Assembly: GCA_013822015.1 (NCBI GenBank)
Contig: PNJU01000005.1
Coordinates: forward strand, 1 to 64,000
Direction: 5' to 3'
DNA: 64,000 nucleotides
DNA from: Candidatus Puniceispirillum sp.
Lineage (GTDB): Bacteria > Pseudomonadota > Alphaproteobacteria > Caedimonadales > UBA1908
Below, in pieces: positions 1 to 49,837 of this stretch. Numbering within the stretch: position 1 is the first letter of the stretch; each line of letters begins with the position of its first letter. Under the pieces are notes generated by a model. That model was not told the DNA's origin. It made no database searches and was given only the letters and a program-made list of their open reading frames with translations. The position numbers and the translations under genes were made by a program.

Positions 1-2471
1 AGGGGATGGATGTGGGTGCTGGCCTTATCCCTTGCAAGGCTTTCGTAGTGGCCAAGCAAACTTAGGAAAACAACTTCAATGGGAGAGTCTGGCGTTTTTT
101 TGATCACCTCGTACACCACACGGTCGCCGTCACTTAAGCGCCTGGAGAAGTAGACGCCACCAGAAGATGCAAGACTCTCGGGGCGCCCAAGACCCCCCCG
201 GGTTTGGTAGGGTTTCTGGGCAATCTCTGTGGCCAGCTCGTGAAACTTCTTTTGCAAGGCGGGTAAGAGTGCTGCGTAATCAGCCTCAGCCTTCTTCTTC
301 ATGAAAAGCATCGTCTGGCTGCGCGTGTTGTCGGTGGCACCTTGATCGCTTCGGGGTGTGTGCGTTTGTTGAGGGTGCGCAGTGCCGTGGGTTTTTTCCT
401 TTTGGCGCACGCTAGGAGCCTCGTAAGGCTTGTTTTCCATCATAAAGGGAGTGCTCGCCTCTTGGGCGTTGTTTAAGCTGGCCAGATAAGCCTGAAGCTC
501 TTTTTTTCGGAGACCCTGTTCAACTTCTTGGGTTTTTTGGAAGTGGCGATCCAAGTCCTTCAGGGACGTGGCAAATGTATCAATGCGCTGGCCAATGTCG
601 CTGATGTTGGGCGTGTGCACCTTCTTTGTAGACTTTTTGCCTTTTTTCTTGGCGGAACCGGAGGCGTTTTTTTTCCCCTGTGGTTGGGCGCTGGCCTTCA
701 GAAGACTCTTCTTGAGATCCTCCACTTCTTGGTTGCTGCGCTCAATTGCTTGGGTCAGCTCCCCGCAGTCGTCGAATCCTATGGCGGCTCTGGTCATGTC
801 GGTAAGATGTTCCTTCAGCTCATCCAAGCGTTTCGTGTAGTGGCGCCCAAGATGAGCCCGGACCGCGTCTCCCATGGTGGGCTGTGTGCGCGCTTGAGTG
901 CTTGATGAGGATGGGGGACGCTTATCTCGCTTTGAATCTGGTTTGCTTTCGAGGCCGTCTTGGCGGCTGGCCTGCACCAAGGTGGCAATGATGGTGGGCG
1001 TTTCGTTGTAGAGGGCGTCCTTGAGGGAGGCGATTTGCTCTTCATTAAGGGTATTTGAGACTTTCAAGTAAAGCTGGTTACTCCTCCAAGTAAAATAAAT
1101 GTCATAAATATCGGCGGCTTCGCGGTGACGTCCAAGAGCTGAGAGGGCTTTGGCTAAATCAAGGGAGAGGTCAAAACGATACCCCCTGAGGATGTCGCCC
1201 CCAGGACTGGGCATGGCGTTAACATCAGATGCCTTAAGATATGACAGGATTTGGCTCGTAAGATGCTCTACCTTCCCGTAGCGCTTTTGGCGGAGGAGGC
1301 CCTTTACCATGTTTGCCATCACAGACATGTCAATACTTGTGGGCTTGAAATTGTGGCTGTCTAAATGGAAGACTTCCTGGTAGCGGCCCCACCATCGGTC
1401 AAGGGCGCCGGGGTCTGTTGGAAATTCGCTGTGGTGGTACATGGCCCAAAGAAGCGTCCTTTGGGTGCATGGTTCTTGTGCGGCGTGCCACTTTTCATAT
1501 TCTGCCCAGGTGCTTAAGCACTCATCACCCCGGCCAAGGGCGTGATAGGCATTGGCAAGCAAAGGAAAAGCCCACGCGGCTTGTTTGCTTGTGGGGGATG
1601 TGCGCGTCAAGAATTCTGAACACTCATTGACGATGGCCAACGCTTGATCCCGCGGTAGGCCATTCTCGTGGCCTTCTGCCTGGGCAAGACGCAAGTAACC
1701 CTCAAGATCTTTCTTGAGCGTGGGGTCCAGGGCAGGCGTTTTTGCAAGGACTCTTTGAAACAGGGCATGGTCCCATTTACCGCTGTCCCTGAGATCCGTT
1801 GCCACGGGGGAGTTTTGCACTGTGATGAGGAGGTCAGTGATTTTGCTGCTTTGGGCAAGGGGAACCGTGCCGTCTGCGCGCGTGACGCGGCACACATAAT
1901 ACTCACTAAATTCCTTCAAACCATGCATTGCTGTGGAGATCTTCACCAAATGATTCTGGGTCAAGCTCTGGTGGGCGGGGGTGCGCTCCGTCAAAAGAAT
2001 GCCGAGCTTACAGTAAGTTTTGGCTACCTCACAAATCAGATCCACATTTGGGTAGGTCATCCAGAGTAGGCGGTCACTTGCACGCTGTTGGGAAGGGGAA
2101 TACATGCTCGCTGTTTCAATAAGATGATCAACGTACACACTTTTGTCAGGGATCTGATCATTGGAAAGGGTGTCCCCCACAAGGCAAATCCACTGGGCAA
2201 GTTCCTGTTGGATAAAAAAACCTTTTCGCGCCGCCTGGAGAATGGGCATTTGAACTGGTGGTGCTGCGGGGTCACTCAAAGACGCGCGCCACTCAGCCAG
2301 ATCGAGTCTTTGCTCTGTGCCCTTGGCTTTGCTTGGTGCCTTTTGAGAAAGCGCTGTCTTTGTTTCCGCCTCAAGGGAAGGGTGGCTGGCTTTGACCGTG
2401 AAAACACCCAGGGAACCTAAAAAGAGGAACTTTGTAAAATAAGTGACGCGCAAAACAAGCCTTGTATTCAT
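1..2471 (-). CDS. Exported helical-repeat protein with C-terminal YoeB-like RNase domain, copy A (3' end outside window)
   Basis: Open from ATG at 2471 through the window edge: 823 codons are visible and, by comparison with the three downstream paralogs, only about 5-25 are missing. I checked the frame at several points and found no break. The N-terminus is signal-peptide-like (hydrophobic stretch about residues 7-25, then VKASHP). The middle is alpha-helical with TPR-like pieces (AYHALGRGDECLSTW, ALSALGRHREAADIY), followed by a Lys-rich coiled coil. The last 95 or so residues align with YoeB: Asp-Tyr start, helix, GRPESL, FSRRLSDGDRVVY, then GHYE. Residues matching YoeB Glu46, Arg59, Arg65, His83 and Tyr84 are all present (His 808, Tyr 809). 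It belongs to a tandem family with 3044-5503, 5678-8152 and 8436-10985. RNase activity and target are inference; no antitoxin is visible nearby. Confidence 0.85.
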   Translation of the reverse strand, partial: MNTRLVLRVTYFTKFLFLGSLGVFTVKASHPSLEAETKTALSQKAPSKAKGTEQRLDLAEWRASLSDPAAPPVQMPILQAARKGFFIQQELAQWICLVGDTLSNDQIPDKSVYVDHLIETASMYSPSQQRASDRLLWMTYPNVDLICEVAKTYCKLGILLTERTPAHQSLTQNHLVKISTAMHGLKEFSEYYVCRVTRADGTVPLAQSSKITDLLITVQNSPVATDLRDSGKWDHALFQRVLAKTPALDPTLKKDLEGYLRLAQAEGHENGLPRDQALAIVNECSEFLTRTSPTSKQAAWAFPLLANAYHALGRGDECLSTWAEYEKWHAAQEPCTQRTLLWAMYHHSEFPTDPGALDRWWGRYQEVFHLDSHNFKPTSIDMSVMANMVKGLLRQKRYGKVEHLTSQILSYLKASDVNAMPSPGGDILRGYRFDLSLDLAKALSALGRHREAADIYDIYFTWRSNQLYLKVSNTLNEEQIASLKDALYNETPTIIATLVQASRQDGLESKPDSKRDKRPPSSSSTQARTQPTMGDAVRAHLGRHYTKRLDELKEHLTDMTRAAIGFDDCGELTQAIERSNQEVEDLKKSLLKASAQPQGKKNASGSAKKKGKKSTKKVHTPNISDIGQRIDTFATSLKDLDRHFQKTQEVEQGLRKKELQAYLASLNNAQEASTPFMMENKPYEAPSVRQKEKTHGTAHPQQTHTPRSDQGATDNTRSQTMLFMKKKAEADYAALLPALQKKFHELATEIAQKPYQTRGGLGRPESLASSGGVYFSRRLSDGDRVVYEVIKKTPDSPIEVVFLSLLGHYESLARDKASTHIHP

Positions 2472-2486
2472 AAATTGCCACTATGG

Positions 2487-2515
2487 CGTATAGTACATTT
2501 CATTTTTCTATTCAA
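2487..2515 (-). promoter_or_regulatory. Sigma-70-type promoter for copy A
   Basis: On the minus strand TTGAAT (2515-2510) and TATACG (2492-2487) are separated by 17 bases, ending about 15 bases upstream of the ATG at 2471, which implies a very short leader. Read from sequence only. Confidence 0.45.
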
Positions 2516-2584
2516 GTTTCTTATGGGATGGGCGCGCAGACCCTCAGATTGCGTATTTGTATGTCAATACCTCTCTTTATCGAA

Positions 2585-2691
2585 TATAGCCGAACCCTTA
2601 TAATTTGATCATGCGTTACTCGTCGCTCGTGTATACCTATACACATCGCTTGCCTCGATTCCTGTGATCAAATTAAACTGTTCTAGCTATA
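2585..2691. repeat. 107-bp inverted-repeat element (MITE-like), copy 1
   Basis: Starts TATAGCCGAACC and ends GTTCTAGCTATA, an imperfect terminal inverted repeat of about 28 bp flanking a central hairpin (GTGTATA/TATACAC). The same element, also 107 bp, is at 49956-50062 and a 105-bp version is at 17161-17265. TA-bounded ends match those of the IS630 remnant at 49956-50607, so it is probably a non-autonomous derivative. Confidence 0.7.
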
Positions 2692-2694
2692 TGA

Positions 2695-3006
2695 TTGACA
2701 GATCTATGGTTTTTTCTTGAAAATAAAACTGAGTGCGATAATAAAAATGGCAAAACCATACATTATTTGTTTATTTATACGACGGTTCTTACGGCGGTCT
2801 GCATTGGGGATGCGGCGCTTGCACAGCACCTGCCGGAAAAAGTTGAAGACGCCGCATGCCTGAAGGCCTGGATGGAAGAGATGCAAGGCCAGCTTGCTCA
2901 CAAAGACGCGACAAAACCCATTGGGGAGCGTCTGGAGGAGGCCCACAACAATGTTGTGCGCGCCAACATTAAAATCATTGAGGCGAAACTCGCCCAAAAG
3001 AAATAG
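2695..3006 (+). CDS. Small exported protein of unknown function
   Basis: I do not recognise this protein. The frame encodes a hydrophobic segment ending GDAALAQ (signal-peptide-like), then about 60 mostly helical, Glu/Lys-rich residues ending IIEAKLAQKK. The start is uncertain: TTG at 2695 gives a charged N-terminus without a clear ribosome site and TTG at 2767 gives a bare hydrophobic start. An ATG at 2747 lies one frame off and would read MAKPYIICLF before joining the signal peptide, so a one-base indel near 2770-2780 is possible. It is the only plus-strand gene in the first 8 kb and converges on the YoeB-like copy B, ending about 40 bp from it. It may be an intact small effector or a decaying one. 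Confidence 0.5.
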   Translation: MTDLWFFLENKTECDNKNGKTIHYLFIYTTVLTAVCIGDAALAQHLPEKVEDAACLKAWMEEMQGQLAHKDATKPIGERLEEAHNNVVRANIKIIEAKLAQKK

Positions 3007-3043
3007 CGCCCGGCCTGCCTGAAGGAGGCCTCGCCCTGGCCCC

Positions 3044-5503
3044 TCACTCCATGACAAGGGGATGGACGTGAGTGCTTTCCTTATGTCTTTCCAGGTTTTC
3101 ATAGTGTCCGAGTAAGCTTAAGAAAACGACGTTCACGTTGCCCGTTGCGCCTTTAATTAGCTCATACACAACCCGGTCGCCGTCACTCAGGCGCCTTGAA
3201 AAATAGATTCCCTGGGCTGACACAAGTTTTTTTGGACGTCCGAGCCCGCCAAGCACTTGATAGGGGTTCTGGGAAATTTGCGCGGCAAACCCGTGAAACT
3301 TACTCTGTAGATCCTGCTCGAGCTTTTTATAATCTGACGCTGCCTTCTTTTTCATCAAGAGCGTTGCCTTTGCTGTTTGCGGTGCAGACTGCTCGGTAGG
3401 GTTTTCTGGCGCGGGGGCAGGGAGCTTGGCAATGCCTCTCGTTTTTTCCTTGCCCGTGGGTAACTGCGCGGGTTCGAAGCTTGTGGGGAGGGCAAAAGTT
3501 GCAGCGTCATCCTCGTCAGCGCTCAAGCTTTTGAGGTACGCTTCAATTTCTTTTTTACGATGGGCCTGTCGCGTTTGCTCGAGGGGCTCCAAGATTTTTT
3601 CTAAGGTGCGAAGGGGCGTGCGCAACCCATCGATACGTTTGCCCAGCTCGGTGATGGTGGTGGGCTCGTTTTTCTTTTCAAGGGCCTTAGATGCGGCCTT
3701 AGTCAACTCACCCTTAAGGGTTTGGACTTTAGATTTATAACTTTCAAGGCTTTTTGTAAATCCGGCTGTCACCTCAAGTCCTTGTGATCTCTTCTCTAGT
3801 GCTTTAAGGTGTGTTTTCACGCTATCAATCATCTTGGTGTAATGGGCGAGCAAATGGGCCTTGGCACCATCGGCGAAGGATAAGCTTTTCCCAGGGCTGT
3901 GGCGTCCCGCGCGCATGGCTGCACTGGCACCGCCCCGGCGATCAGCTGATTTTAGATTTCGTGCCTGTTGCAATCTCTCCTTTGGCGTCAGCTGCTTAAT
4001 ATTGCCAGTTTGTGATAGGGCAATGCTTGCATATTCAAAGTCCTCACTCAGATCTAAGGATAAGAGCGTTTCTTCTTGCTCTTGACTGGCGCGTCCCATA
4101 TGCAAGTAGATGCCGAGCTGATCCCAGACAAAGAAAGTGCCATAGATTTGAACGGCTTCCTCATACTGGCCCAGATGTGTGAGTGAGCGCGCAAGCCGCA
4201 AAGCGTTCATCACACGCAGGGCGGTGTAGTGGTGTCTTGCTTTTGGGTCCGTAAAGCGCGGTTCTTGATCCTGAAGAAACGCGTTGATCTTGCGGGCCAA
4301 AAAGACACTTTCCCCATGGCGATTCAGGCGTGAGAAAGTATCCGTAATATTGATCATGAGATTGAGCTCATAAGCGGACGGGAAAAAGGACGCTGTGTCA
4401 AAGGATGCCTCCTTTTGATAGCGGTCCCACCAATGTTGAATCTTTTGCGGGTCGTCACTAAAGCTGCAGTGATGGACAAGGGCGTTGATGAGATCTCGGC
4501 GGCTCCATCCCTCATGGGCAGGGTGAAATTTTTCGTACTCCTGCCACGCCTTGAGGCAATTTTCTTTGTCCTCAAGGGTGTCATAAGCCCTTGCAAGAAG
4601 TGGGAAAAACCATTCAGCATGCTGGGCTTTAGGGTCCTCTCCAATTTCAAAGGAGAGGGGCAGTGTGCAGTCTTGGGTAATTTGGCGTGCCTTGTCTTTT
4701 TGGCGCGCCGTGTCGTTTTCAAACTTTTTCAGATGGCTCTCAAGCTCCGCAAGGCGGACGAATCCGTTGATATAGTCTTTTTCGTGAGGCGCTAACGCCG
4801 GTGTGTGTGTTGCAACGATGTCGAGAAGCACGCGGTCCCAGCCACTCCTGCGCGCCAGATCAACGTAAAATGGGGTCCTGTAAGCTGCAATAATAATCCC
4901 CATAATATCAAGGGCTTGAGCTTTAGTAAACTCATTTTGTGTGCTCGTAATGCGATCCACGTAGTGTTTGGACAGAGTTTCAAAGGCGTGAGACATTGCA
5001 GCGAGTGTGGCGCCACCTATGGCTTGCTGGTCCGGTGTTTCTTTGCACACATAGAGATTAATGAGGTGCAGGTAAGGCCTGATGGCATTGGGGAGGGACT
5101 CCATGTCCAAAAAGAGACCAGAAAGCGTGGTCATGGGCAAGGGGTCCTTGGGTGCAAAAATCCTCACAATATGAACGAGGTGGGTAACATAGGTGGGGCT
5201 ATCTTGGTGAATGGGGCCAAGGGCTCGCTCGCCAATGCCCGCTATCCACTCGCCCAGCTTTCCCTGGGCCTTAAAGGTTTCCATTCCGCCCATGAGTGCG
5301 TCGTTGGTCATGAAACTTGCGGGCGCGCTCTGGGCCAGGTACTGGGTCCACTCTTCTATGCTGGATTGCTTGTGAGGTGTCATCATGGCAGCTGTGCTTA
5401 AGGGCACCGCGCAGGTCATTTCAGGGATTTCATCGCTGCCAAAGAGGGTGGCCGAGGAGGTGAGGACAAGGGCAAGGGCGGTTGAGAGAGAGTGAATGCG
5501 CAT
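3044..5503 (-). CDS. Exported helical-repeat protein with C-terminal YoeB-like domain, copy B (Glu46 position changed to Lys)
   Basis: 819 residues. The frame is open 10 codons further upstream (5533), but MRIH at 5503 matches the starts of copies C and D and follows a GGAAAAG ribosome-site-like stretch. Signal peptide about residues 1-23. Residues about 30-500 are helical with TPR-like repeats (LARAYDTLEDKENCLKAW, LARSLTHLGQYEEAVQIY); about 540-680 is coiled coil; about 700-735 is a Pro/Ala/Lys linker. From about 735 the C-terminus aligns with YoeB (SDYKKLEQDL, GRPKKL, FSRRLSDGDRVVY, GHYE). The position of YoeB Glu46 is Lys here (GRPKKL), while both Arg, His 800 and Tyr 801 remain, so catalysis may be weakened. 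A conserved tail ending HVHPLV follows the toxin-like domain. Confidence 0.85.
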   Translation of the reverse strand: MRIHSLSTALALVLTSSATLFGSDEIPEMTCAVPLSTAAMMTPHKQSSIEEWTQYLAQSAPASFMTNDALMGGMETFKAQGKLGEWIAGIGERALGPIHQDSPTYVTHLVHIVRIFAPKDPLPMTTLSGLFLDMESLPNAIRPYLHLINLYVCKETPDQQAIGGATLAAMSHAFETLSKHYVDRITSTQNEFTKAQALDIMGIIIAAYRTPFYVDLARRSGWDRVLLDIVATHTPALAPHEKDYINGFVRLAELESHLKKFENDTARQKDKARQITQDCTLPLSFEIGEDPKAQHAEWFFPLLARAYDTLEDKENCLKAWQEYEKFHPAHEGWSRRDLINALVHHCSFSDDPQKIQHWWDRYQKEASFDTASFFPSAYELNLMINITDTFSRLNRHGESVFLARKINAFLQDQEPRFTDPKARHHYTALRVMNALRLARSLTHLGQYEEAVQIYGTFFVWDQLGIYLHMGRASQEQEETLLSLDLSEDFEYASIALSQTGNIKQLTPKERLQQARNLKSADRRGGASAAMRAGRHSPGKSLSFADGAKAHLLAHYTKMIDSVKTHLKALEKRSQGLEVTAGFTKSLESYKSKVQTLKGELTKAASKALEKKNEPTTITELGKRIDGLRTPLRTLEKILEPLEQTRQAHRKKEIEAYLKSLSADEDDAATFALPTSFEPAQLPTGKEKTRGIAKLPAPAPENPTEQSAPQTAKATLLMKKKAASDYKKLEQDLQSKFHGFAAQISQNPYQVLGGLGRPKKLVSAQGIYFSRRLSDGDRVVYELIKGATGNVNVVFLSLLGHYENLERHKESTHVHPLVME

Positions 5504-5677
5504 GAAAAAAGACTTTTCCAAGAAGACGTACACCTCTATCTATATAGCCACTTTTTGCATCAACGCGCCACCGCTGTTTTTTGCCATAATGTGGCAAAGA
5601 GTGTACTTGGCGCGTAGGCCGCGCAGAACCCAGGCCCGGCACGGTTAAGGCGCGGATCTGGGCGGTTACGCTGAGCG

Positions 5678-8152
5678 TTAGGATGACTTTTCTTTGGTTC
5701 TTTTTTGCAAGACAAGGGGATGAAAATGGGTGCTTTCCTGGTGCCTTGCAAGGTTCTCGTAGTGTCCGAGTAAACTCAAGAAAATGACGTTGACGGCGTC
5801 ACTTTCGTCTTTGATAAGCTGGTATACAACGCGGTCCCCGTCACTCAGGCGCCTTGAGAAATAGAGCCCCTCCCCAGACACAAGACGCTCGGGTCGCCCG
5901 AGGCCCCCAAGGATTTGATAAGGGTTTTGGGCGATTTCCGCGGCAAGCCTGTGGAACTTCCTCTGCATGTTGGGCAGGAGTGATTGATAGTCCGCATCCG
6001 CCTTCTTTTTCATCAAGAGGGCGGCCTTTGCCGGTGCAGGTTGCTGTGCAGCTTTCTTGGGCGCGGCGGCGGCGGGCTTTGCAACGCCTTTGGTTTTTTT
6101 CTTGCGCGCGGGCACTTGTGCAGGCTCAGGGCTTGCGATCGGGGTAAAGTGAACGGCACCTACTTCGTCAGCGCTCAAGTGCCTTAGGTATTCTTCAAAG
6201 CCCCTTTGTCGCTGGACTTTGCGTTCGCTTTCGGCAGGCTCCAGGGCTCGCTCCAGCACGTCAAAGGACGCCCAGAGGGTGTCCACGCGTTGGCCAACCT
6301 CGTTGATAGTGGGGGCGCCGCCACCGTTCTTCTTAACGGGCGCGCAAGAGACGCTTGCCAGCTCTTTTTTAAGCACTAGGATCTTAGATTGATAAGCCGT
6401 GACCGTTTGGTCGAATTCCTCGCTTAAGTGAAGCCCTTGTGCGCGCCTTGTTGTTTCTTCTAATTTTTCATCCATGCGCTTAAGTCGTTTTGTGTAGTGA
6501 TCAACCAAATGTGCTTTTGCACCATTGGCGATGGAGAGACTGTGACGCGCCGAGCTCTTTGCTGTACGCCTAACACCATTTCGTGCGCCTTTGCGGCTAG
6601 CTGCCTTTCCTTTTCGTGCTTGTTGAAGTTTCGCCTTAGGATCGGCCTGAGCCAGGAGCCCTATCTGAGACAAGGCGGTGGCCGCGCATCGCAGGTCTTC
6701 ACTTAGGGCATCTTCAAGCTCGTTTTTTTCTGTGCGCGTTACGTCGCAACCCGCCTTCAGGTAGATGTTATCTTGATCCCACTCAAAAAACGTTTTGTAA
6801 ATGGCGACGGCTTCTTGATAGCGACCCAGCTCGGTGAGTGAGCGCGCAAGACTTAAGGAGGTTAAGAAGTGGTGGGTTGTATAGTGTTCACTGAGTCGTC
6901 CATCAAGAAGACTTTTGCCTTCGTTCCCAAAGAAGTTCAGTATTTTTTGTGACAAGAACATGCTCTCCTCGTGGCGCTTGAGGCGAGAATATGCATCATT
7001 CACGTTGATCATCATGTTCAGTTCAAGATCCGTTGGCAGGAAACGGTCCATGTTAAAGGAGGTTTGCTTTTGATAGCGGTCCCACCAATGCTGTATGACC
7101 CGTGGCTCATCACTGAAGTGACAGATGTGGAAAAGCGCATTAATCATATCCCTGTAGCACCAGGGGTGGTTGGGGGGATAAAGTTTGTCGAATTCCTCCC
7201 ACGTTTTAAGGCAGTCGTCTTTCTGGTCCAGGGCATGATAAGCGCTGGCCAGGAGGGGGAAAGCCCACATGGCGTGGCTTTTACTGGTTTGATCGTCAAC
7301 TTCGCAGGACAAGGCGCCCCCAAACTGTTCAACAATTTTACGAGCCTCGGCTTTTGGAAATTTGTCCCCATAAGACTCAACCTTAGCAAGGTGGATGAAC
7401 CCTTTAATATAGTCTTTTTCGTACGGCGAAAGGTCCGGGGTACGTGCTGCGACGACGTCGAGCAACATGCGGTCCCACCCACTTCTGCGTGCCAGTTCAA
7501 TGATGAAAGGTGAGTGATATGCCGCCAGCATGATCTCTGTAATATCAAAGGCTTCGTCCCGTGTGAGGAACCCTTTTGTTTGGGTGATGCGATCAATATA
7601 GTGTTTGGAGAGCGTCTCAAAGGCAGCCATGAGCGTGTACTTTGTCATGAGCGTATTTTGCTCCGCTTGTTGAGCGGCTGACTGACCTGCTAAGCAGGTG
7701 TTAATAAGCGTGAGATAGCTCCATATGGCGTTTGGCAGCGCTTTATAGTCAGGAAAGAGTTCGGCCAAGGCCTCCATGGACAAAAGCTCCCTTGGTGCAA
7801 TGACTTTTACAGTGCTTACCAAATGAGCCACGTATGTTGGCTTGCTTAGGCTGGGGGGCCCAGAGATTTGCTTGCCAACGCGCGCGATCCAGTCAGCCAG
7901 CATTCCATGGTTTTTGAAGGTCTCCATAGCTTGGGTGAGGTCCTTCATTGTCACAGGGCCCTGAGGGTTCTCTTGGGAAAGGTAAAGGATCCAGTCCTCG
8001 ACACTTGATCTTTGAAAGGCAGACAAGGTGCGCACAGCCGCGGGGCCCGGTGAAGGTGCGGTGGTTCCCCTATCCAAGGTCTCGTCGCTGCAAAAAAGGT
8101 TGGAAGAGGTGATGACAAGACAAAGAGCTGTTGTGATGTAGTGAATGCGCAT
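5678..8152 (-). CDS. Exported helical-repeat protein with C-terminal YoeB-like RNase domain, copy C
   Basis: 824 residues from the ATG at 8152 (the frame extends 10 codons further, but MRIHYITTALCL matches its paralogs). The layout is the same as in the other copies: signal peptide (residues 1-22 or so), helical-repeat body with TPR-like units, a coiled-coil section about 540-680 and an Ala/Lys/Pro linker. The YoeB-like domain runs from about residue 735 (ADADYQSLL) through GRPERL, FSRRLSDGDRVVY and GHYE. All five YoeB active-site positions are matched (Glu in GRPERL, both Arg, His 797, Tyr 798). YoeB itself is a free cytosolic toxin of 84 residues; here the same fold appears fused to an export signal and a large helical body. 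Function as an exported RNase is inference. TATATAAG lies about 35 bases upstream on the minus strand. Confidence 0.87.
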   Translation of the reverse strand: MRIHYITTALCLVITSSNLFCSDETLDRGTTAPSPGPAAVRTLSAFQRSSVEDWILYLSQENPQGPVTMKDLTQAMETFKNHGMLADWIARVGKQISGPPSLSKPTYVAHLVSTVKVIAPRELLSMEALAELFPDYKALPNAIWSYLTLINTCLAGQSAAQQAEQNTLMTKYTLMAAFETLSKHYIDRITQTKGFLTRDEAFDITEIMLAAYHSPFIIELARRSGWDRMLLDVVAARTPDLSPYEKDYIKGFIHLAKVESYGDKFPKAEARKIVEQFGGALSCEVDDQTSKSHAMWAFPLLASAYHALDQKDDCLKTWEEFDKLYPPNHPWCYRDMINALFHICHFSDEPRVIQHWWDRYQKQTSFNMDRFLPTDLELNMMINVNDAYSRLKRHEESMFLSQKILNFFGNEGKSLLDGRLSEHYTTHHFLTSLSLARSLTELGRYQEAVAIYKTFFEWDQDNIYLKAGCDVTRTEKNELEDALSEDLRCAATALSQIGLLAQADPKAKLQQARKGKAASRKGARNGVRRTAKSSARHSLSIANGAKAHLVDHYTKRLKRMDEKLEETTRRAQGLHLSEEFDQTVTAYQSKILVLKKELASVSCAPVKKNGGGAPTINEVGQRVDTLWASFDVLERALEPAESERKVQRQRGFEEYLRHLSADEVGAVHFTPIASPEPAQVPARKKKTKGVAKPAAAAPKKAAQQPAPAKAALLMKKKADADYQSLLPNMQRKFHRLAAEIAQNPYQILGGLGRPERLVSGEGLYFSRRLSDGDRVVYQLIKDESDAVNVIFLSLLGHYENLARHQESTHFHPLVLQKRTKEKSS

Positions 8153-8292
8153 GAAAAAGAAGCTTTTAAAGAATATTGACACTTTCGCTTATATACACTT
8201 TTTTTGCGCCCCGATACTAGTCGTTGTTTTTGTCATTTGAAAAAAAATTCACGTGCCTGTCTTGCTCCCGCTTATCTCTCATTTTCATGTGC

Positions 8293-8321
8293 TTGACGGC
8301 GCTGGCGCGTGCACGTTAAAG
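8293..8321 (+). promoter_or_regulatory. Promoter of tRNA-Thr
   Basis: TTGACG (8293-8298), 17-base spacer, TTAAAG (8316-8321), ending 16 bases before the tRNA. The block CTTGACGGCG-Y-TGG recurs at 11124 upstream of another gene. Confidence 0.5.
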
Positions 8322-8337
8322 TGCCTGTGCATGGCGC

Positions 8338-8413
<76 letters not shown>

Positions 8414-8435
8414 TGATTCACAGGCCGTTATGTGG

Positions 8436-10985
8436 CTAAGATGACTTTCCTTCTGGCCTTGGTTGCAAGACAAGGGGATGTATGTGTGCGCTTTCCTTGT
8501 GTCTTGCAAGATTTTCATAGTGGCCCAGTAAACTTAAGAAAACCACGTTCACAGCGTCATTTTCATCTTTGAGTAGCTCATACACAACCCTGTCGCCGTC
8601 GCTTAAGTGACGGGAGAAATAGATGCCATTTTTGGACACAAGACGCTCAGGGCGACCAAGGCCCCCAAGGATCTGGTAGGGGTTCTTTGCAATCTCCCTT
8701 GCCAGGGTATGGAACTTGCGGTGCATGGTTGGCGAGAGGGAGTTGTAATCGGCGTCTGCCTTTTTCTTCATGAAGAGCGTTGCCTTGGGAGGCGTTGGCT
8801 CTTGTTTGTCAAGGGATGGTGGAGATATGGGTGGGGCCTGAGGGAGCCCTTTTCCGCGCCCATTGGGTCTTGTTTTTTTCTTCTGCGTGGGCTTTGGCGA
8901 GTGGCTCTCTTGAACAGGCTCCGGCGTAAAGTGCTTGAGCTCATCATCATTGGCGCTCATGCGCGCAAGATAGGCGTCAAGTTCCCTTTGCCGTTGCCTT
9001 CTGTGACGCTCATGGGCGTTTTGCAGCTCTTTCTCCAAAGATAAAAGCGTCGCCCGCCACGCGTCCACGCGTGTACCAATCTCGCCGATGGTGAGAGGCG
9101 GGGTGTCTTCAGAAGGGATGGTGTCTTTGGAAGGTGGGCGTTTTCTTTTTGAGGCCAGTGAGGACAGCAAAGAAAGCTTTTCTTGAAGTGCGCGTGTGTT
9201 GTCTTTGTGGACGGTGAGGCTATTCAAGAATTTACTAGGAAGCTCAAGGTGCTGCGCGAGCAGGGACATCTCTTGAAGGCGGGCATCCATCTCTTGAAGA
9301 CGGTTTGTGTAGTGCTGAATCAAATGTGCTTTGGCGCCATCGGTAATGGAGAGGCTTTCAATGGGGCTGTTGGGTTCGGGCAAAGGTGCTCCCCCCCGTT
9401 TGCCCAAGCGCTTGGTTGATTTATCCATGATCGCCTTGTGAAGTCTTTTCTGAGAATCCGCATGTGCGTTTGCATGAAAGCGCCCTGCTTGAGACAAGGC
9501 AACGGCGGCGCATTTGATGTCATCTTTTAAGTCTTCCTTTAAGCGGCGGATCTGCTCCTCGGGCAATCCGTGGTGGCCTTTCAGGAAGAGCTTGTTATTG
9601 TCCCACTCAAAAAAATCGTCATAAATAGCGGCGGCTTCTTCGTGGCGCCCCATCTCTGTGAGGGATCTGGCTAGGCTGAGGGAGAGAAAAAAGTGTTGGA
9701 CGCTGTAGTGCGATTTAAGCGTGTTGTCAGTGCATGATGTGTCGGCGTTATTAATATAATTGAGGGCTGTGCGCGTGAGGATCTCGTTTTCTTTGTAATG
9801 GTTGAAGCGCACATAGGCGCGACTTACACTCGCGGTGACATTTAAGTCGACGCGCGTTGGTAGAAAATCCTCCAAACTGAGATTGCTTTCTTTTCGGTAG
9901 CGCTGCCACCAGCGGTCAACGGTTTGGATGTCGTTTGCATGTAGTGTGATGTGGCAAAGGGCGCTTAGAAGCTCTCTATAGGACCACTTGAAACGCTTGT
10001 CGTGAAGACGTTCGTACGCTTCCCAGACCTGTACACATTCCTGGGACTTGTTCAAAGAGTGATAAGCCGTGGCCAAGAGGGGGAACGCCCACGCCGCATG
10101 GGGCTTTTCTGTTCGCTCGCATGTCAGATAGGGGGTGAATGCCTCAATGATCTCGTTCGCTTCCCTGTGTGAGATGCCCTCTGGACGCGTTTCAATGCTT
10201 GCCAGGCGCAAAAATCCTTCCAAATAAAGTTGTTCTTCAGGGGAAAATGCGGGTGTCTTTTTAAGCACAGTATGTAAAAGGCGGCGGTCCCATCCGTCCC
10301 CAACGGCGAGGTCAGTGCTGTAAGGCGAGGCGTAGGCGTCCAAGATCAGCTGAGAGATGTCAAAAGCTTCTTCCCGTGAAAAGTGTCCCTTTTCCTTGGA
10401 AATGCGCTCCATGTAATGGGTGCATAGGGTGACAAAACCGCTTATGAGGACGTATTTTGCAATGATGATGCCATCACTAATTTGGTGTGCCGCCGGTTGT
10501 GTGGTGAGTACCAGCGTAACGAGTTTAAGATAATGGCGTGCGGCCCGAGGGATAGCGTCCGTATCCTTGAAAAATGGCTCCAGCGCCTTCATGCCAAGGG
10601 GTTTATCAGGCGGGGCAAAGCCATCTGTCAAACGAATAAGGTGCTCAAAATAGACACTGGCACCCCTGGCGCGAGGCTGGATAATGGTCTTCCCTAATAG
10701 AGTAATCCAGTCACACAGATGCCCCGTTGATGCAAAAAGGTTTTGTCCCATGGATAGTGTTTCAAAGGAAAGGGGTGCGGGGTCATTTTGCGCAAGGTAT
10801 TGGCGCCACTGCCCCATGGTTGAGTCCTCGTTCAGACGCTGTGGCGGGGGAGTTTCTCCCTGTCTTTGGGAGGGCAAGTTTTTGCCAGGCGTGTCTTTCT
10901 CATCTGGAAAAAGATCGCTTGCTTGAAGGTAAGGGCACCCGTGTGCGCCAAGACATAGGATTGTTGTGATGTAGAGAATGCGCAT
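8436..10985 (-). CDS. Exported helical-repeat protein with C-terminal YoeB-like domain, copy D (Arg59 position changed to His)
   Basis: 849 residues from ATG 10985 (MRILYITTILCLG, signal peptide to about residue 22). The body is helical with TPR-like units (LATAYHSLNKSQECVQVWEAY, LARSLTEMGRHEEAAAIYDD), then a coiled coil and a Pro/Ser/Lys-rich linker. The YoeB-like domain begins about residue 758 and contains GRPERL, FSRHLSDGDRVVY and GHYE (His 822, Tyr 823). Compared with copies A and C, the Arg matching YoeB Arg59 is His; the Glu46, Arg65, His83 and Tyr84 equivalents are kept. The conserved tail reads SAHIHPLVLQ. Upstream on the minus strand is TTGATA...TATACAG at a similar distance from the start as in copies B and C, suggesting a shared regulatory region. 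Confidence 0.86.
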   Translation of the reverse strand: MRILYITTILCLGAHGCPYLQASDLFPDEKDTPGKNLPSQRQGETPPPQRLNEDSTMGQWRQYLAQNDPAPLSFETLSMGQNLFASTGHLCDWITLLGKTIIQPRARGASVYFEHLIRLTDGFAPPDKPLGMKALEPFFKDTDAIPRAARHYLKLVTLVLTTQPAAHQISDGIIIAKYVLISGFVTLCTHYMERISKEKGHFSREEAFDISQLILDAYASPYSTDLAVGDGWDRRLLHTVLKKTPAFSPEEQLYLEGFLRLASIETRPEGISHREANEIIEAFTPYLTCERTEKPHAAWAFPLLATAYHSLNKSQECVQVWEAYERLHDKRFKWSYRELLSALCHITLHANDIQTVDRWWQRYRKESNLSLEDFLPTRVDLNVTASVSRAYVRFNHYKENEILTRTALNYINNADTSCTDNTLKSHYSVQHFFLSLSLARSLTEMGRHEEAAAIYDDFFEWDNNKLFLKGHHGLPEEQIRRLKEDLKDDIKCAAVALSQAGRFHANAHADSQKRLHKAIMDKSTKRLGKRGGAPLPEPNSPIESLSITDGAKAHLIQHYTNRLQEMDARLQEMSLLAQHLELPSKFLNSLTVHKDNTRALQEKLSLLSSLASKRKRPPSKDTIPSEDTPPLTIGEIGTRVDAWRATLLSLEKELQNAHERHRRQRQRELDAYLARMSANDDELKHFTPEPVQESHSPKPTQKKKTRPNGRGKGLPQAPPISPPSLDKQEPTPPKATLFMKKKADADYNSLSPTMHRKFHTLAREIAKNPYQILGGLGRPERLVSKNGIYFSRHLSDGDRVVYELLKDENDAVNVVFLSLLGHYENLARHKESAHIHPLVLQPRPEGKSS

Positions 10986-11250: not shown

Positions 11251-11931
11251 GTGTTCCCTCGTTTGACAGTTCTCTTGCTTTTTGTTTTGTGTGCGCCGGT
11301 ATGGTCCAAGGGAGACTTTGCCTCATTTGTGCCACCTGGCTGGGCGCTTCTTGCTCAGTCCCAAGGCGATCTTGCTGGTGAAGGAAGGCAAGACGTGGCC
11401 CTGGTGATCGCCCAGAACGATCCGGAACGCATCAAAGAAAATAAAGAGGGGCTTGGATCAGAAACCATCAACACGAACCCGCGCGCGCTCCTGATCTTAT
11501 TTCAAGAAGCGGGCGGCGCTTTCAGGCTTGTTCTCACACACAAAACCATTATCCCGCCTGAAGGAGACGAGCAGTCGCCCTGTTTAGCGGACCCCTTTCA
11601 AAGTGTGGCCATAGCCAAAGGCAGGCTTGTTCTTTCGTTCCAGTCCTGGTCCTCTTGTGGGACGTGGTCTGCCAGCCAGTTCGAGACCATCTTTCGCTAT
11701 GAAAAAGAGACGCAAGGGTTTCGTCTCATCGGTGCGCAGGTAAGGGACTTTCACCGCGGAACCGGTGAAGGGACGCACACCACCACAAATTATCTCACGA
11801 GAAAAAAGAAGATCACCAAGGTCCATATGGGCGACGATAGCAATGAAAAATCCCGCGTTGCGTGGACAAAACCCTCTTGTCACGAACCCGTTTATCTTCA
11901 TCAGATGGAAGGGTTTTTTCCCCCCGAGTGA
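11251..11931 (+). CDS. Exported protein of unknown function (periplasmic, VPPGW/GDL type)
   Basis: 226 residues from a GTG start; the first 20 residues form a clear signal peptide (LTVLLLFVLCAPVWS). The mature part opens with FVPPGWALLAQSQGDLAGEG and DVALVIA. This resembles a family of small periplasmic proteins built on the pattern FIPxGY...GDLNxDGxxDLVLV, whose function I do not know. Two Cys pairs (CLADP, SSCGTW) could form a disulphide. It is predicted to be periplasmic or secreted. It is transcribed divergently from YoeB-like copy D, with a promoter-like sequence 97 bp upstream. Confidence 0.7.
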   Translation: MFPRLTVLLLFVLCAPVWSKGDFASFVPPGWALLAQSQGDLAGEGRQDVALVIAQNDPERIKENKEGLGSETINTNPRALLILFQEAGGAFRLVLTHKTIIPPEGDEQSPCLADPFQSVAIAKGRLVLSFQSWSSCGTWSASQFETIFRYEKETQGFRLIGAQVRDFHRGTGEGTHTTTNYLTRKKKITKVHMGDDSNEKSRVAWTKPSCHEPVYLHQMEGFFPPE

Positions 11932-11979
11932 CTGCGTCCATAGGCCAAAGCTGCGCGTGTTCGCTCCTTGTCAAAAACA

Positions 11980-12010
11980 TTGACAAAGATGACGTGAGTC
12001 TCACTAGATA
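11980..12010 (+). promoter_or_regulatory. Shared promoter motif of the NLS-like exported paralogs (first copy)
   Basis: TTGACA (11980-11985), 19 bases, TAGATATAT-TTCG. The next paralog at 13038 carries the same arrangement with the same 19-base spacing. Confidence 0.45.
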
Positions 12011-12044
12011 TATTTCGTATTTTTTGCAAAATGGAAAACAAAAT

Positions 12045-12914
12045 ATGATCATAAAATCTCCAACGGTCTTTGTGGTGTCGTTATGCGCAGGAGTTGTTTC
12101 TTCCTACGCGCTGGCAAGTGATATGCGTGATGAGAACCAGACCAGCTCTCTCAAGAGGAAGGCGCCGTCGCAGCTTGTCAAGATTGGAGACACGAAACGT
12201 CAGTGCATTTCTGCTTTTGCCCTAGATGAAACCAGCCCCGATCCTTCACAGCGCGCTCCCCTTGAAGAAGAAGGACGCGAGTCTATGAAGCCTGATCACA
12301 GTGCCTCGGTGGACGAAAATCCTCCCCATGCTTTGAAGAACGAACAAGCCATTGACGCAGCTTTGTCAGAACAAGAAAACACAAGCAGTTTTGTCCTTGG
12401 ATCAGCGGCTTGGATGAGTCTGCGAACTGCCTATGAGTCTGCGCCGCACGACAAGCATGAACATTTCCATAGGGCGGCACAGCTCTATGACAGCGCCCTT
12501 GCATGCCCAGAAAATCCAGATGCTCGAATAATTGTCTGTGCCCTTCTTGCACACTATGACTTAGCGGAGTTTGAGCCAGAGGAGCAGAGCGTACGCCACC
12601 TGAAAGAGACAATAAGGCTCTTTGATCAGGCCTTGGGGCGCATTAGATTGCCCAGCCATGCTTATCTCTACGCAGCAAAAGCCCATATAAAGATAGGTGA
12701 AGGATCTTGTGTCCAAGAGAGGTTTCATTCCGTAAAAACCGCACGCACAATCTGCGAAGATGGCCTTAATCTCTATCCTGATTCACGCAATTTGTTAAAG
12801 CAAACATCTGTTATACATAAGGTGCTCTGTGAGCTGTACGAGGAGGCCCACCAGAAAGCCGTTGCAAAGAAAGAGCAAACTATCTCAGTGGAGTCGCAGG
12901 ATCCGCTCTTATAA
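12045..12914 (+). CDS. Exported TPR-like protein with NLS-like basic segment, paralog 1
   Basis: 289 residues. The frame is open upstream, but the ATG at 12045 starts a typical signal peptide ending YALA-SD. The same leader (AAATGGAA 8-14 bases upstream of the ATG) precedes the paralogs at 13101 and 17509 and probably supplies the ribosome site, so it decides the start. Right after the signal peptide comes SLKRKAPSQLVKIGDTKRQC, two basic clusters spaced like a bipartite nuclear localisation signal and almost identical in the next gene. The remainder is helical with TPR-like repeats (AAQLYDSALACPENPDARI, ETIRLFDQAL, ICEDGLNLYP). Function unknown. A host-nucleus-directed effector is one possibility, but the motif alone is weak evidence. 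Confidence 0.75.
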   Translation: MIIKSPTVFVVSLCAGVVSSYALASDMRDENQTSSLKRKAPSQLVKIGDTKRQCISAFALDETSPDPSQRAPLEEEGRESMKPDHSASVDENPPHALKNEQAIDAALSEQENTSSFVLGSAAWMSLRTAYESAPHDKHEHFHRAAQLYDSALACPENPDARIIVCALLAHYDLAEFEPEEQSVRHLKETIRLFDQALGRIRLPSHAYLYAAKAHIKIGEGSCVQERFHSVKTARTICEDGLNLYPDSRNLLKQTSVIHKVLCELYEEAHQKAVAKKEQTISVESQDPLL

Positions 12915-13100: not shown

Positions 13101-13979
13101 ATGAGTTTCAAATATTCAAATGTCCTTGTGTTGTCTTTATGTGCGGGACTTTTCTCGACCTGTGCCCTGGCAAGCGATACGGACGAAGAAACTGAAGGGG
13201 ACCGCGTAACCTCTCTCAAGAGGAAGGCGCCTAACGATCTCGTGAAGATTGGAGACACGAAGCGCCAGTGTGTTGAAGGCACGGTGCGCCGCCTTGCCCG
13301 CGCCCGAGACAAGATCAGTCAAGAGCCAGTGCAACTCTCTCCCCAGGAAAAAGAGGGGCTCATGCATATGGAGCTCTATCATAAGGCGGCCTCACAGGAG
13401 CAAAAACGCGCCCACGCGGCGCTTGCCGTAGAGATCTTTGACGGGATTATCGAGGGCCAAGAAAATCCAGGCACAAAGGTGCTTGGGTGGGCAGCGTCGA
13501 GTCATTTTCGTCTTGCCTCGCACTGTGCCCCAGAAGAACAGTACGCGCAGAACTTAAAAGCTGCACAGCTCTATGACCGGTCCCTCGCCACGCGAGAAGA
13601 TCCAGATCACCGTTTCATTGCCTCGGCAGCACACGCCCATTTTAAATCAGGGACGCTGGGGCCAGGGCCACAGAAACTGCCTCACTTTAGAGAGGCAGTA
13701 AGGCTTTTTAGTCAGGCCATGGAATCCGGTGCAGCCCCGGCTAATCTTTATCTCTATACGGCAGTTGCGCACCTTGAAATAGGCAAAAGGTCCTCTGTCA
13801 AAGAGAAGGTCATCTCCTTGCAAGCCGCACAAAGAGTCTGCGAGGATGGTCTGAAGGTTTGCCCCGAGAAGCCAAATTTATTAAGGCAAAATTTGTTAAG
13901 GCAGCTGTCATACATACACATGGGACTCGGTGAATACTACACAAAAGAGTGCAATAAAAACCTTATCAAGAAGGGCTAA
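13101..13979 (+). CDS. Exported TPR-like protein with NLS-like basic segment, paralog 2
   Basis: 292 residues with a signal peptide ending CALA-SD and then SLKRKAPNDLVKIGDTKRQC, nearly the same basic segment as in the 12045 gene; this conservation stands out because the flanking sequence diverges. The body is helical, with TPR-like units each beginning near a Leu-Tyr (KAAQLYDRSLATREDPDH, EAVRLFSQAMESG, RVCEDGLKVCPE). The end is Lys-rich (NKNLIKKG). The small duplication NLLRQNLLRQ near the end comes from a 15-base direct repeat around 13880-13905. Same leader and promoter layout as its neighbour, so the pair arose by tandem duplication. Function unknown. Confidence 0.75.
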   Translation: MSFKYSNVLVLSLCAGLFSTCALASDTDEETEGDRVTSLKRKAPNDLVKIGDTKRQCVEGTVRRLARARDKISQEPVQLSPQEKEGLMHMELYHKAASQEQKRAHAALAVEIFDGIIEGQENPGTKVLGWAASSHFRLASHCAPEEQYAQNLKAAQLYDRSLATREDPDHRFIASAAHAHFKSGTLGPGPQKLPHFREAVRLFSQAMESGAAPANLYLYTAVAHLEIGKRSSVKEKVISLQAAQRVCEDGLKVCPEKPNLLRQNLLRQLSYIHMGLGEYYTKECNKNLIKKG

Positions 13980-26076: not shown

Positions 26077-27366
26077 ATGTTTTTGGCTCTTCATAAAAAT
26101 AAGCTTCAGACCTTTTTGGTTGCGGGGCTGATGCTTTTTAGCCTGAGCGTTGTGCACACTGTTTTGAATACGACAAAATTAAGTGTGCTTATGGATGATT
26201 TGCCGGGGTCCATTCAAGGGGCCAAGGAATATGTTATCTACGTGCAATGCAGCCTGTTTGCGATCTTTGCACTTTTATACAGAAAAAAATATTTTCCCCA
26301 CCTGATGTTTGGCTCAGTTCTGGTGCTTCTTGGTGCTTTTGTGGTTTTTCATCTGGGCGTGGCGCAGCCACCGCGCCAGGCGGCGTACGGGTATTTTGTC
26401 ATGGCGCAGTTGTGGGGCCCTTTGAGCATGAGCTTTCTCTTTTGGGCTGTTGCAAATCAGACTTTTTCCTGGCAAGACGCGAAGTGGGCCTATCCTCTTT
26501 TGACCCTTTTTGCCTCCCTGGCTGTTGTGCTGACGACCCTTTTTATTGGTGGACTGACGTCTTTGCGCCACCAGGAAAGTGCCCAACTCTTCTTGACCCA
26601 GACCGGATATGTGCTCTTAGGGGCGCTCATTTTGTTCGCTATCGCCGCGTGGTGGGCCAAAGGGCTTGGGTTGCATAAGGGTAATGTCCCTGAAGAAGTT
26701 TCCTTCGCTCCCCATACGGCCGCCGCACTCGTCCAGCCCGCCCTTATATTCCTGATCACCCTTTCCATGGGCGTGTGCACGCGCCTTCTGGACACACTCC
26801 TCAAGCTGCAGCTTAGACTCCATGAGGGTGTCCAGGCGCTCTCCTACATGTATTTTATGGAGATGTATGGATATGCGACCGGGGGTGTGGGCGTCATCCT
26901 ATTTGTCTCAACCTTTTGGATCATTTGGCGGTGCGGATGGTTTAAGGGTGCGCTTGTGGCACCTCTGTTTACTGCGCTTTCATCGGTGGGGATACTGATA
27001 TGTGCGCAAACGGCCACCGCCCAGGGCGTCCTTGATTTTGATAATATGCCAGTCTTGCTGGCGGTGATCGCTCTGCAGTCAATGATTTTGAAGGGGTTGT
27101 ATGTGTTGTTCTTTGCAACAAAAGAGATGGCGTATATCCCCATGGACGGCGCCATGCGGGTGCGCGCAAAGCTTGTCATAGATTTTCTTTGTGCAGGCTT
27201 GGCACTGTTGCTGAGTAACTTTGTCGGTCAAAAGATCTTTACGCATCTTGCCCATGGGCAAACGCAGATGTTTCTAGGCGTGATTGTGATGGTCAGCCTG
27301 GTTTGGGTTGGTAGCGTTTTTGGTTTGGCAAAAATCTTACCGCATCAAAAAAAGCCCAATGCTTAA
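26077..27366 (+). CDS. ATP/ADP translocase-family (TLC/NTT) nucleotide carrier, short form
   Basis: 429 residues, about 11-12 hydrophobic helices. Family marks: YFVMAQLWG (106-114), LFWAVANQTFSWQDAK (121-136), and FFATKEMAYIPMDGAMRVRAK (about 343-363), matching the TKEMAYIPL signature of TLC carriers. These transporters exchange host ATP for bacterial ADP, or import other nucleotides, across the inner membrane. They occur almost only in obligate intracellular bacteria and plastids. At 429 residues it is shorter than the roughly 500 usual for the family, so substrate and mode (exchange or proton symport) cannot be assigned. Converges with psuG, overlapping its end by 4 bp. It is a separate unit downstream of tRNA-Val. 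Confidence 0.9.
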   Translation: MFLALHKNKLQTFLVAGLMLFSLSVVHTVLNTTKLSVLMDDLPGSIQGAKEYVIYVQCSLFAIFALLYRKKYFPHLMFGSVLVLLGAFVVFHLGVAQPPRQAAYGYFVMAQLWGPLSMSFLFWAVANQTFSWQDAKWAYPLLTLFASLAVVLTTLFIGGLTSLRHQESAQLFLTQTGYVLLGALILFAIAAWWAKGLGLHKGNVPEEVSFAPHTAAALVQPALIFLITLSMGVCTRLLDTLLKLQLRLHEGVQALSYMYFMEMYGYATGGVGVILFVSTFWIIWRCGWFKGALVAPLFTALSSVGILICAQTATAQGVLDFDNMPVLLAVIALQSMILKGLYVLFFATKEMAYIPMDGAMRVRAKLVIDFLCAGLALLLSNFVGQKIFTHLAHGQTQMFLGVIVMVSLVWVGSVFGLAKILPHQKKPNA

Positions 27367-48900: not shown

Positions 48901-49837
48901 GGAGCTTTTGCACTTCCTCCATGTAGTCCCAAAGATCTTCCTGTTTGTCAAAATGAAAACATAAAAAACCAAGTATGACTTGCTCGAGAGTATGCTGAGG
49001 CGCAAGGGTTAGAAGCTCTGACCTTGGCCCACTGCTTGAAGCCGCTTGGGACAATGGAGACGAGCTTGAGCTAGAACCTTGGCTAGAACTGGAAGAAGGC
49101 TGCGCCGTAGATCCTGATGCGGCAGTGCTCCCATCTGGAGAAGGCGACCGGGTTCCTTTCCTTTTTTGCGTGCGCTCAGGCTTGGGTGGCAAAGAAAGAG
49201 CGCTGACCTCTTCGTGATAGACAGCCAGCGTTATATCATTTAGAAACGGATTCAGCAGCGCGTTAGAAAAATTTGGGTACGAGAGTGTTTCTTTTATTCT
49301 TTGAGCATAAGTTCTTTTGAGTTTCTCAAGGCCATTTCCATGAACCTTTGTGAGACGTCCTTCCTCAATGGCGTTGTACTGTTGGCCCTCACGTATGTCC
49401 TTTACTTGATTCAGGTAGTTGAACGTCAAAGAACGTACTTCTTCTGCGTAACACATGAGAAGTGCAATGGTTTTGGGACTTGTTACATAGTTAGAAAAAT
49501 GTTGATGATTGTCGTCGTTATTTACTCGATCACCTAGATTCCCATCCACAGAAGGGAACAAAACGCGTGTCACACGCCATAAAGGGTCTTGAGACGTGTC
49601 ACTCGTATAAATACGATTATTTTTCTCGTCAAATGTTGCTTTCACACCCCAATGAAAACGAATATTGGGGATAAGATGATCAAGGGCTACGCGCCCAACT
49701 GTGGGAGAAAAATACTTCTTCTTAAAGGGACGCGACACACCTTTAAAAGCAGCGTCCGGCACCACAGCATGGGACGCGGCGCTCAACATCAAAGAGCCAA
49801 ACAAAGATGAGTAAAGTATTTTTTTAAATCGACGCAT
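45923..49837 (-). CDS. Giant exported leucine-rich-repeat protein
   Basis: 1304 residues. Signal peptide 1-24 (ILYSSLFGSLMLSAASHA). Residues about 235-280 are a low-complexity Ser/Pro/Ala linker after a basic patch (KPERTQKRKGTRSP). A distinctive block in the middle, PFADCGEMTIRHILNLILYN, contains an invariant-looking Asp-Cys-Gly-Glu and could be a catalytic Cys motif. From about 760 to 1250 there are irregular LRRs of about 22-24 residues (NLKKLILSN, HLNGLNLQGTNVKTISIG, NLKMLLLSG, VKTLDLTRTKV). The end is non-repetitive (GRRIYVNRIGSWEEIE). LRR proteins usually bind other proteins, and in pathogens LRR effectors can be ubiquitin ligases, but no known catalytic domain is evident. Flanked by an IS630 remnant upstream. 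Effector role is inference. Confidence 0.85.
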   Translation of the reverse strand: MRRFKKILYSSLFGSLMLSAASHAVVPDAAFKGVSRPFKKKYFSPTVGRVALDHLIPNIRFHWGVKATFDEKNNRIYTSDTSQDPLWRVTRVLFPSVDGNLGDRVNNDDNHQHFSNYVTSPKTIALLMCYAEEVRSLTFNYLNQVKDIREGQQYNAIEEGRLTKVHGNGLEKLKRTYAQRIKETLSYPNFSNALLNPFLNDITLAVYHEEVSALSLPPKPERTQKRKGTRSPSPDGSTAASGSTAQPSSSSSQGSSSSSSPLSQAASSSGPRSELLTLAPQHTLEQVILGFLCFHFDKQEDLWDYMEEVQKLQAPENEVIDAEFVNPHEQDLFDEERDPDVIVGKENGACDLDDIYNLKIVESLRASVPYRQVLSNGSAWVYDRAQDAFYVPNGKEKEMEGLRNRLSHMRDRTDAFIEIPTGADGRMERAHKPFADCGEMTIRHILNLILYNKQTHHFDLDRLRGIQTPYIQHLFDFFNIQSNIHTAKDGSEVMRSLWNRVVGDLNGLHGSQEEASDALRPDLWIRYLNKRQGQDAATYDLCTDFENILSVFEKILAFGLTPFSPPSQPQENDDSRGVWLADQYLKLLTFLNPHHIYNVVYKEDERFKEGEHEPFKDYLYGDLTIQVNNDFKFRINMQPGHGEIEELKLLKVSPTDQQYTQKLTALLADPALIPADSVETSLITFAQSKHYLATQKLNDFFKLMCEPMDGNQDIFSFVVNLSFTDMSQWSDDVMSSLDLTLRNILEEYTWDDRASVERLTPQLMQLSTKTKRLPLAFASVPHLMGKLSLSTKEWQAFDVNVFKNIDELDLRDSSIDELVFKEDFPNLKKLILSNITQRIEGFEHLRALEAFSFGEGRGESRVKSLAFPLEMPYLKKLAVPSGATVTGLENLTAIQELNFLGVAPFFGDLSAPLLTVERLQTPRDLETMIDLDFFPNLSFLNMESSQVRSLNFTNRHEKITEFYPPRAAESITGLENLPHLNGLNLQGTNVKTISIGAEMPNLKMLLLSGRSEEIEGFSFLTGMRFFEVGNTLKGLRITRDMPNLVELTGIGPYSDFTFLEGIEHLVSVHTFSLQNAKIKTLRVGAPMHHVQEISLPKTLETLEGAHHLGVKTLDLTRTKVAGFYVEEDNDAIQSLIFDPYKTTVSRLDRLRSLQEIKFYQDDTEGIRDGREVRFNDVLPMVTRLELCDGYLNDTPHKVVGLENLPLLCDVAMKASCLGQKGATDLLNLPSISTVRLAGGFYDMSQVPDHISNVLISGFRPTIKGKKSEWTIAEYPRDGVLTPEMRAQPGRRIYVNRIGSWEEIE

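Follow-up and report, generated by a model that had tools for sequence, protein, structure and literature searches.

YoeB is a cytosolic self-poison that is held under antitoxin control. Here we describe a multigene family of proteins of exported type that end in a domain almost certainly homologous to YoeB. Four of its genes lie in tandem at the start of the window, the whole stretch of DNA that was analysed (positions 1–64000 of contig C5, in a genome of 1.98 Mb and 18 contigs). The closest known systems include the YoeB/Txe toxins of yefM-yoeB modules (PF06769, TIGR02116), whose free YoeBs are open reading frames (ORFs) of about 85–95 residues, and Txp40, an insecticidal toxin of Xenorhabdus (PDB 7xbj).

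The structure of ribosome-bound YoeB assigns Glu46 as general base and His83 as general acid, links Arg59 and Arg65 to the transition state and gives Tyr84 an assisting role; Glu46 mutants are compromised rather than dead (PMC3814384). The general-base position of RelE is Lys52, and the K52A substitution is without significant effect (PMC2807027). An RNase of the RelE/BECR fold, Tox-RelE, is found at the C terminus of secreted polymorphic toxins, and intracellular bacteria have ankyrin, TPR and Sel1 solenoid proteins with other toxin folds (OTU-like peptidases, Tox-REase-8) at their extreme C terminus (PMC3482391). Multidomain BECR-fold toxins described by Gerdes in 2025 include YoeB fusions (YefM-YoeB, RHH-YoeB) and a membrane type, ToxM (PMC11980606). 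A Holosporales symbiont of Bodo saltans has polymorphic toxins with immunity genes, and YoeB is unnamed in the accessible text of that report (PMC8163844).

Results

A YoeB-like domain ends four tandem genes

The region 1–10985 of the window is occupied by four tandem minus-strand ORFs with products of about 830 residues (823–849): copy 1 (3–2471; 823 residues), truncated by the contig start so that its very C-terminal end is missing, copy 2 (3044–5533; 829 residues as listed), copy 3 (5678–8182; 834 residues as listed) and copy 4 (8436–10985; 849 residues). In copies 2 and 3 an ATG at codon 11 is the likely start. Profile matches place the YoeB-like domain at 9–308, 3065–3361, 5726–6019 and 8481–8777, respectively, all on the minus strand, and in copy 3 the fold agrees with the profile.

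The last ~95 residues of all four copies match TIGR02116 from model positions 2–5 to 80 of 80 (E 6.1e-8 to 4.4e-7), each under the equivalog cut-off of 51.8 bits. With whole proteins PF06769 gives E 5.7e-6 to 1.1e-4, slightly under its 27-bit cut-off in every copy; in a six-frame search three of the four exceed it, and among relatives scores of 41.9–46.2 bits are reached. With an E limit of 0.01, a profile built from 12 exported domains matched 11 sequences in PDB. Eight of these are YoeB-family chains (E 1.1e-11 to 1.1e-7) and the other three are protein-A constructs (E 4.5e-4 to 0.0098). A tblastn search with the copy-3 domain alone matched 66 plasmid records, the best annotated match being a Txe/YoeB toxin gene (E 3e-9, 35.5% identity over 88% of the query). 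Foldseek was run with a predicted domain model that was built from exported copies only, free YoeB being absent from its alignment, and its first 13 rows were YoeB-family.

A sequence-only reading of this DNA had proposed that these last residues resemble YoeB, and the TIGR02116 matches of all four copies together with the tblastn match show that the likeness does not arise by chance. The sub-threshold whole-protein Pfam scores of the window copies and the three protein-A constructs are what could speak for chance similarity or a low-complexity artefact. We rejected that explanation, which is already contradicted by TIGR02116, by the E-values of the YoeB-family chains in the same PDB profile search, by the scores of the relatives, by tblastn and by Foldseek, and which is hardly credible. 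From these alignments and the predicted model, we are nearly certain that the C-terminal domain is a YoeB homologue.

Active-site residues and selection on the domain

Thirty-seven exported domains were compared at the positions of the five YoeB residues. Arg65 and His83 are present in all 37, Arg59 in 34, Tyr84 in 28 and Glu46 in 21, the Glu46 position being Lys in 14; in free YoeBs all five were found in nine of nine tested. Dropped before this count were C7b (domain cut by a contig end), G001:C1:669534 (in-frame stops), G405/L140 (in-frame stops and no ORF match), the 230-residue frame of G154 and all ORFs of free size. Kept, though doubtful, were G151, the open part of a gene with upstream in-frame stops, and C1c, G001b, G156, G412 and G010, in which the N terminus is missing or odd.

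In the window only copies 1 and 3 carry all five residues. The sequence-only reading had seen residues at the Glu46, Arg59, Arg65, His83 and Tyr84 positions, set in identical blocks, in all four copies; copy 2 reads GRPKKL, with Lys at Glu46, and copy 4 reads FSRHL, with His at Arg59, so that the claim about the residues stands for copies 1 and 3 and the one about the blocks had to be given up. The ADADY block, likewise ascribed to all four, occurs in copies 3 and 4; it is AEADY in copy 1 and AASDY in copy 2. By analogy, a copy with Lys at position 46 need not be dead, because RelE carries Lys52 and K52A has no significant effect.

Pairwise comparison of six family genes (15 pairs) gave proportions of nonsynonymous differences (pN) of 0.12–0.37 in the domain versus 0.34–0.61 in the body, with the domain lower in 15 of 15 pairs. 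The corresponding synonymous values (pS) are 0.59–0.93 in the domain versus 0.73–0.83 in the body, the domain being lower in 6 of 15. Purifying selection on the YoeB-like domain is much stronger than on the body. Given these pS values, gene conversion is unlikely to be the sole cause of domain conservation; some gene conversion is possible because pS is lower in the domain in those six pairs.

Family size and distribution

The genome holds 16 profile matches, 15 of them in large frames and one a free YoeB on contig C14. Four of the large-frame genes are in the window, five on C1, two on C7 and one each on C4, C6, C9 and C11. Family genes are seen at contig ends, namely at the starts of C5, C1 and C11 and at the ends of C7 and C1. 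The assembly may therefore have been interrupted at repeats, and 15 may underestimate the family. In a full-length alignment of 15 sequences, distant members are 13–18% identical to copy 3, and the five invariant columns all fall within the YoeB domain; the bodies have drifted apart and the tip has been retained. Because the search for members relied on the YoeB tip, any carriers with a different tip would have been missed.

Within the order to which the window belongs, a match is present in 9 of 11 genomes, and in four of the 11 (G000, G001, G002 and G004) one falls in a frame of more than 250 residues. The order of G030 has matches in 24 of 42 genomes, with frames of more than 500 residues in 11, ten of which were confirmed as ORFs (that of G405 has stops). 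An even sample of the class gave matches in 42 of 386 genomes and frames of more than 350 residues in seven. TPR or Sel1 repeats score above cut-off in 9 of 20 relatives scanned with Pfam. In the relative from G151 (L076:2552–5062), which belongs to another family, in-frame stops lie between a signal-like start and the YoeB-tipped part.

On a tree of 82 rows and 98 columns (46 free and 36 exported sequences, the near-duplicate C1c omitted; root unknown), the free or exported label changes three times, compared with a mean of 27 when labels are shuffled. A single origin of the exported class is possible on these alignments.

Domain layout, export and lifestyle

The four window copies have a common plan: an N terminus resembling a signal peptide, then a helical body of TPR-like type, long coil helices and a disordered linker, with the YoeB-like domain at the C terminus. 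In copy 3 (minus strand) the signal-peptide-like N terminus is at 8087–8152, its extent judged by eye, and the TPR-like body at 6797–8002 (model residues 51–452), with TPR-type fold matches at low TM-scores. The coil helices follow at 6173–6532 (model residues 541–660), and a disordered linker rich in Lys, Ala and Pro lies at 6029–6133 (model residues 674–708; predicted local distance difference test, pLDDT, below 50). Modelled at full length, copy 3 is helical; it has long coil helices, and its C-terminal alpha/beta domain stands apart. TPR matches to all four window bodies are under the Pfam cut-offs. Of the signal peptide, helical-repeat body and coiled coil earlier proposed for all four copies, the signals are thus recognisable by eye, and the helical repeat is supported by the copy 3 model and not by Pfam.

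In four of ten own copies listed, the linker contains a basic stretch resembling K-x-K-T-[HKR]-G, with near variants in two more, and the linkers of other copies have NLRGQ[YF]xHxK in common. These motifs are possible processing or targeting signals.

The N terminus of copy 3, read from the ATG of codon 11, looks like a Sec signal, e.g. MRIHYITTALCLVITSSNLFCS, and similar N termini were recognised by eye in all 15 own family genes, an internal start being assumed in six. Sec export of the family proteins is likely from these N termini, and that the proteins are exported we hold with good confidence. Three secretin genes were found, one in a Tad-like locus on C1, one nearest to MshL and one with TPR, all under the NCBIfam equivalog cut-offs. 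A candidate component of a type II secretion system (T2SS) is a GspE/PilB-type ATPase on C10 (429.5 bits versus a cut-off of 630.25), which may serve a pilus. The proteins could leave by Sec combined with a pilus- or T2SS-like route.

A TLC ATP/ADP transporter gene is found at 26077–27366 on the plus strand (PF03219, 92 bits versus a cut-off of 21; TIGR00769, 80.7 bits, sub-cut-off). Intracellular life is supported by this gene, in agreement with the earlier description of the source as an apparent intracellular symbiont, and the bacterium is probably intracellular. We tentatively assign the genome of the window a Holosporales-like position.

Antitoxin, immunity and the free YoeB

No match to the PF02604 antitoxin was found in the genome; the same search was positive in 8 of 14 control genomes. 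Genes lying within 1.5 kb of the copies were compared for recurrence (phmmer, E 1e-4) at 19 loci, which included 14 own copies, and among the 404 ORFs none that was small recurred beside more than two of those 14. Tail-to-tail with copy 2, at 2695–3006 on the plus strand, lies a small gene whose helical product has a hydrophobic N-terminal segment. The copy that opens C1 has a relative of this gene (32% over 69 amino acids) beside it in the same tail-to-tail arrangement. The gene is a possible partner, a suggestion we make with little confidence.

The free YoeB on C14 (L035:7185–7460, 91 amino acids) opens with residues that resemble the beginning of a YefM and then continues inside YoeB. Its sequence makes it likely that an in-frame deletion removed the antitoxin, because G002 (L111:415–941) keeps neighbouring yefM and yoeB as separate genes.

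Other genes in the window

The ORFs at 11862–12914 and 13101–13979 encode neighbouring exported-type paralogs that have SLKRKAP-x-x-LVKIGDTKRQC in common and no Pfam match at E 1e-4. This basic motif could, by its sequence, be a nuclear-type signal. Two large Sel1-repeat proteins are encoded at 31857–33827 and 34905–36752, with 13 and 9 matched stretches, respectively. An ORF of 1304 residues at 45923–49837 has a leucine-rich repeat as its sole match, sub-cut-off.

Discussion

We propose that the genes form a multigene effector family of a probably intracellular alphaproteobacterium. The proteins would cross the inner membrane via Sec and leave the cell by a further route. The TPR-like superhelix and the coil would probably bind a target, and the flexible linker bears the C-terminal YoeB-homologous domain, which would probably cut mRNA in the ribosomal A site outside the producing cell. 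Host cytosolic or organellar ribosomes are the most likely target. Copies with Glu46 would use YoeB chemistry, and those with Lys46 may lean more on the ribosome, as RelE does. That no recognisable antitoxin or immunity gene accompanies the family would be explained by action on ribosomes outside the producing cell. We infer the catalysis, the target and the passage through the outer membrane, and for the whole host-directed RNase mechanism the balance is about even. Somewhat below that stands the fuller picture, in which YoeB has become the antitoxin-free, amplified (15 copies) C-terminal warhead of exported TPR/Sel1 proteins in at least two alphaproteobacterial orders, its chemistry having moved in part from Glu/His to a RelE-like Lys and its target being the ribosomes of the host cytosol or organelles.

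Several observations count against a host-directed RNase. Glu46 is missing in 16 of the 37 exported domains, Tyr84 in 9 and Arg59 in 3, and all five residues are kept together in only 16. A crude hydropathy test singled out only 18 of the 37 family N termini; the test is weak because helical bodies are also hydrophobic and several rows are without a true start. Single-marker searches of the genome gave no VipB match for a type VI secretion system and no VirB4-type match for a VirB-type type IV secretion system, searches that divergent systems could escape, and with neither marker matched no delivery machine is recognised. In Pfam scans of 20 relatives, nine pass the PF06769 cut-off, three have a sub-cut-off match and eight are unlisted. 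Confidence in the domain model is moderate (mean pLDDT 66), and in VIA-align, with Z to 10.3, YoeB was tied with RelE; YoeB came first by profile, by single sequence and in Foldseek. Finally, Arg65 and His83 are the only fully invariant columns among 81 well-filled columns of the exported domains, an invariance that is partly a selection effect, since the profiles used to collect the rows give weight to the key positions.

The replaced residues speak for seeing the domain as a binding module, a YoeB fold kept to bind RNA, ribosomes or protein after RNA cutting was lost. So does the lack of an antitoxin in a genome whose cytosol is where the domain is made. The two invariant columns speak against it, as do the Lys at the general-base position of RelE, whose loss is tolerated (PMC2807027), and the residual function of YoeB Glu46 mutants (PMC3814384), and we find a pure binding role unlikely. 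Much the same doubt attaches to an antibacterial toxin released to act on competing bacteria, in the manner of polymorphic toxin systems, with kin protected by unrecognised means. The natural target of YoeB is the bacterial ribosome, Tox-RelE is among the described domains of polymorphic toxins (PMC3482391), and the Holosporales symbiont mentioned above shows polymorphic toxins and immunity genes together (PMC8163844); here the genome lacks both a PF02604 and a VipB match, and no small gene recurs beside more than two of the 14 own copies compared. Still less probable is an RNase or structural protein that the bacterium keeps in its own periplasm or on its own surface and does not deliver into another cell. 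Signal-like N termini together with the missing secretion markers would suit it, but YoeB is most effective with ribosomes, and the periplasm has none (PMC3814384), and the large TPR/Sel1 bodies are of target-binding type. The translocated translation inhibitor earlier suggested from the sequence survives in part: the lack of PF02604 and of a recurrent small neighbour and the strong selection on the domain fit it, and the number of domains that keep all five residues does not.

If the family is exported, a toxin of toxin-antitoxin modules has been repurposed for action outside the producing cell. A host-directed RNase would, if true, give symbionts a testable means to control translation in the host or its organelles. 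The Glu46 and Lys46 copies would then provide a natural variant series for studying ribosome-dependent RNases. YoeB matches in such genomes would also have to be read with caution, as not all of them would be toxin-antitoxin modules.

With the YoeB/Txe toxins the exported domains share homology, the order of elements and Arg65 and His83 (37 of 37), and their GHY end is common to free YoeBs of several phyla. They differ in that they form the tip of an exported-type protein of ~500–1000 residues without YefM, and in that Glu46 and Tyr84 are often replaced. A type II toxin-antitoxin module consists of a small free toxin beside its cognate antitoxin gene, unlike the proteins of 823–849 residues here; polymorphic toxins have an immunity gene beside the toxin gene, and here a small gene lies by two copies only. 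The multidomain BECR-fold toxins are antitoxin or membrane fusions, and 'secret', 'signal peptide', 'effector' and 'TPR' are all absent from the main text of PMC11980606. An exported, YoeB-tipped, immunity-free and amplified family was not found in the literature among the matches listed, in a search that left most subscription journals outside, nor in the accessible parts of the 2025 RelE/ParE survey (PMC11980606). The sequence-only reading went too far in stating that no system of this form was described, since both Tox-RelE tips and solenoid proteins of intracellular bacteria that end in a toxin are on record (PMC3482391). Tox-RelE is listed there with HINT, RHS and Imm54, whereas the present tip sits on a TPR/Sel1 solenoid with no immunity gene found beside it, and the name 'YoeB' was not found in the accessible part of that source. 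The toxin-tipped solenoids are nearest in plan, being without immunity genes and thought to be aimed at the host (PMC3482391), and they bear other toxin folds. RelE tips on polymorphic toxins are thus already known, and what is new here is a YoeB-tipped, immunity-free, amplified family.
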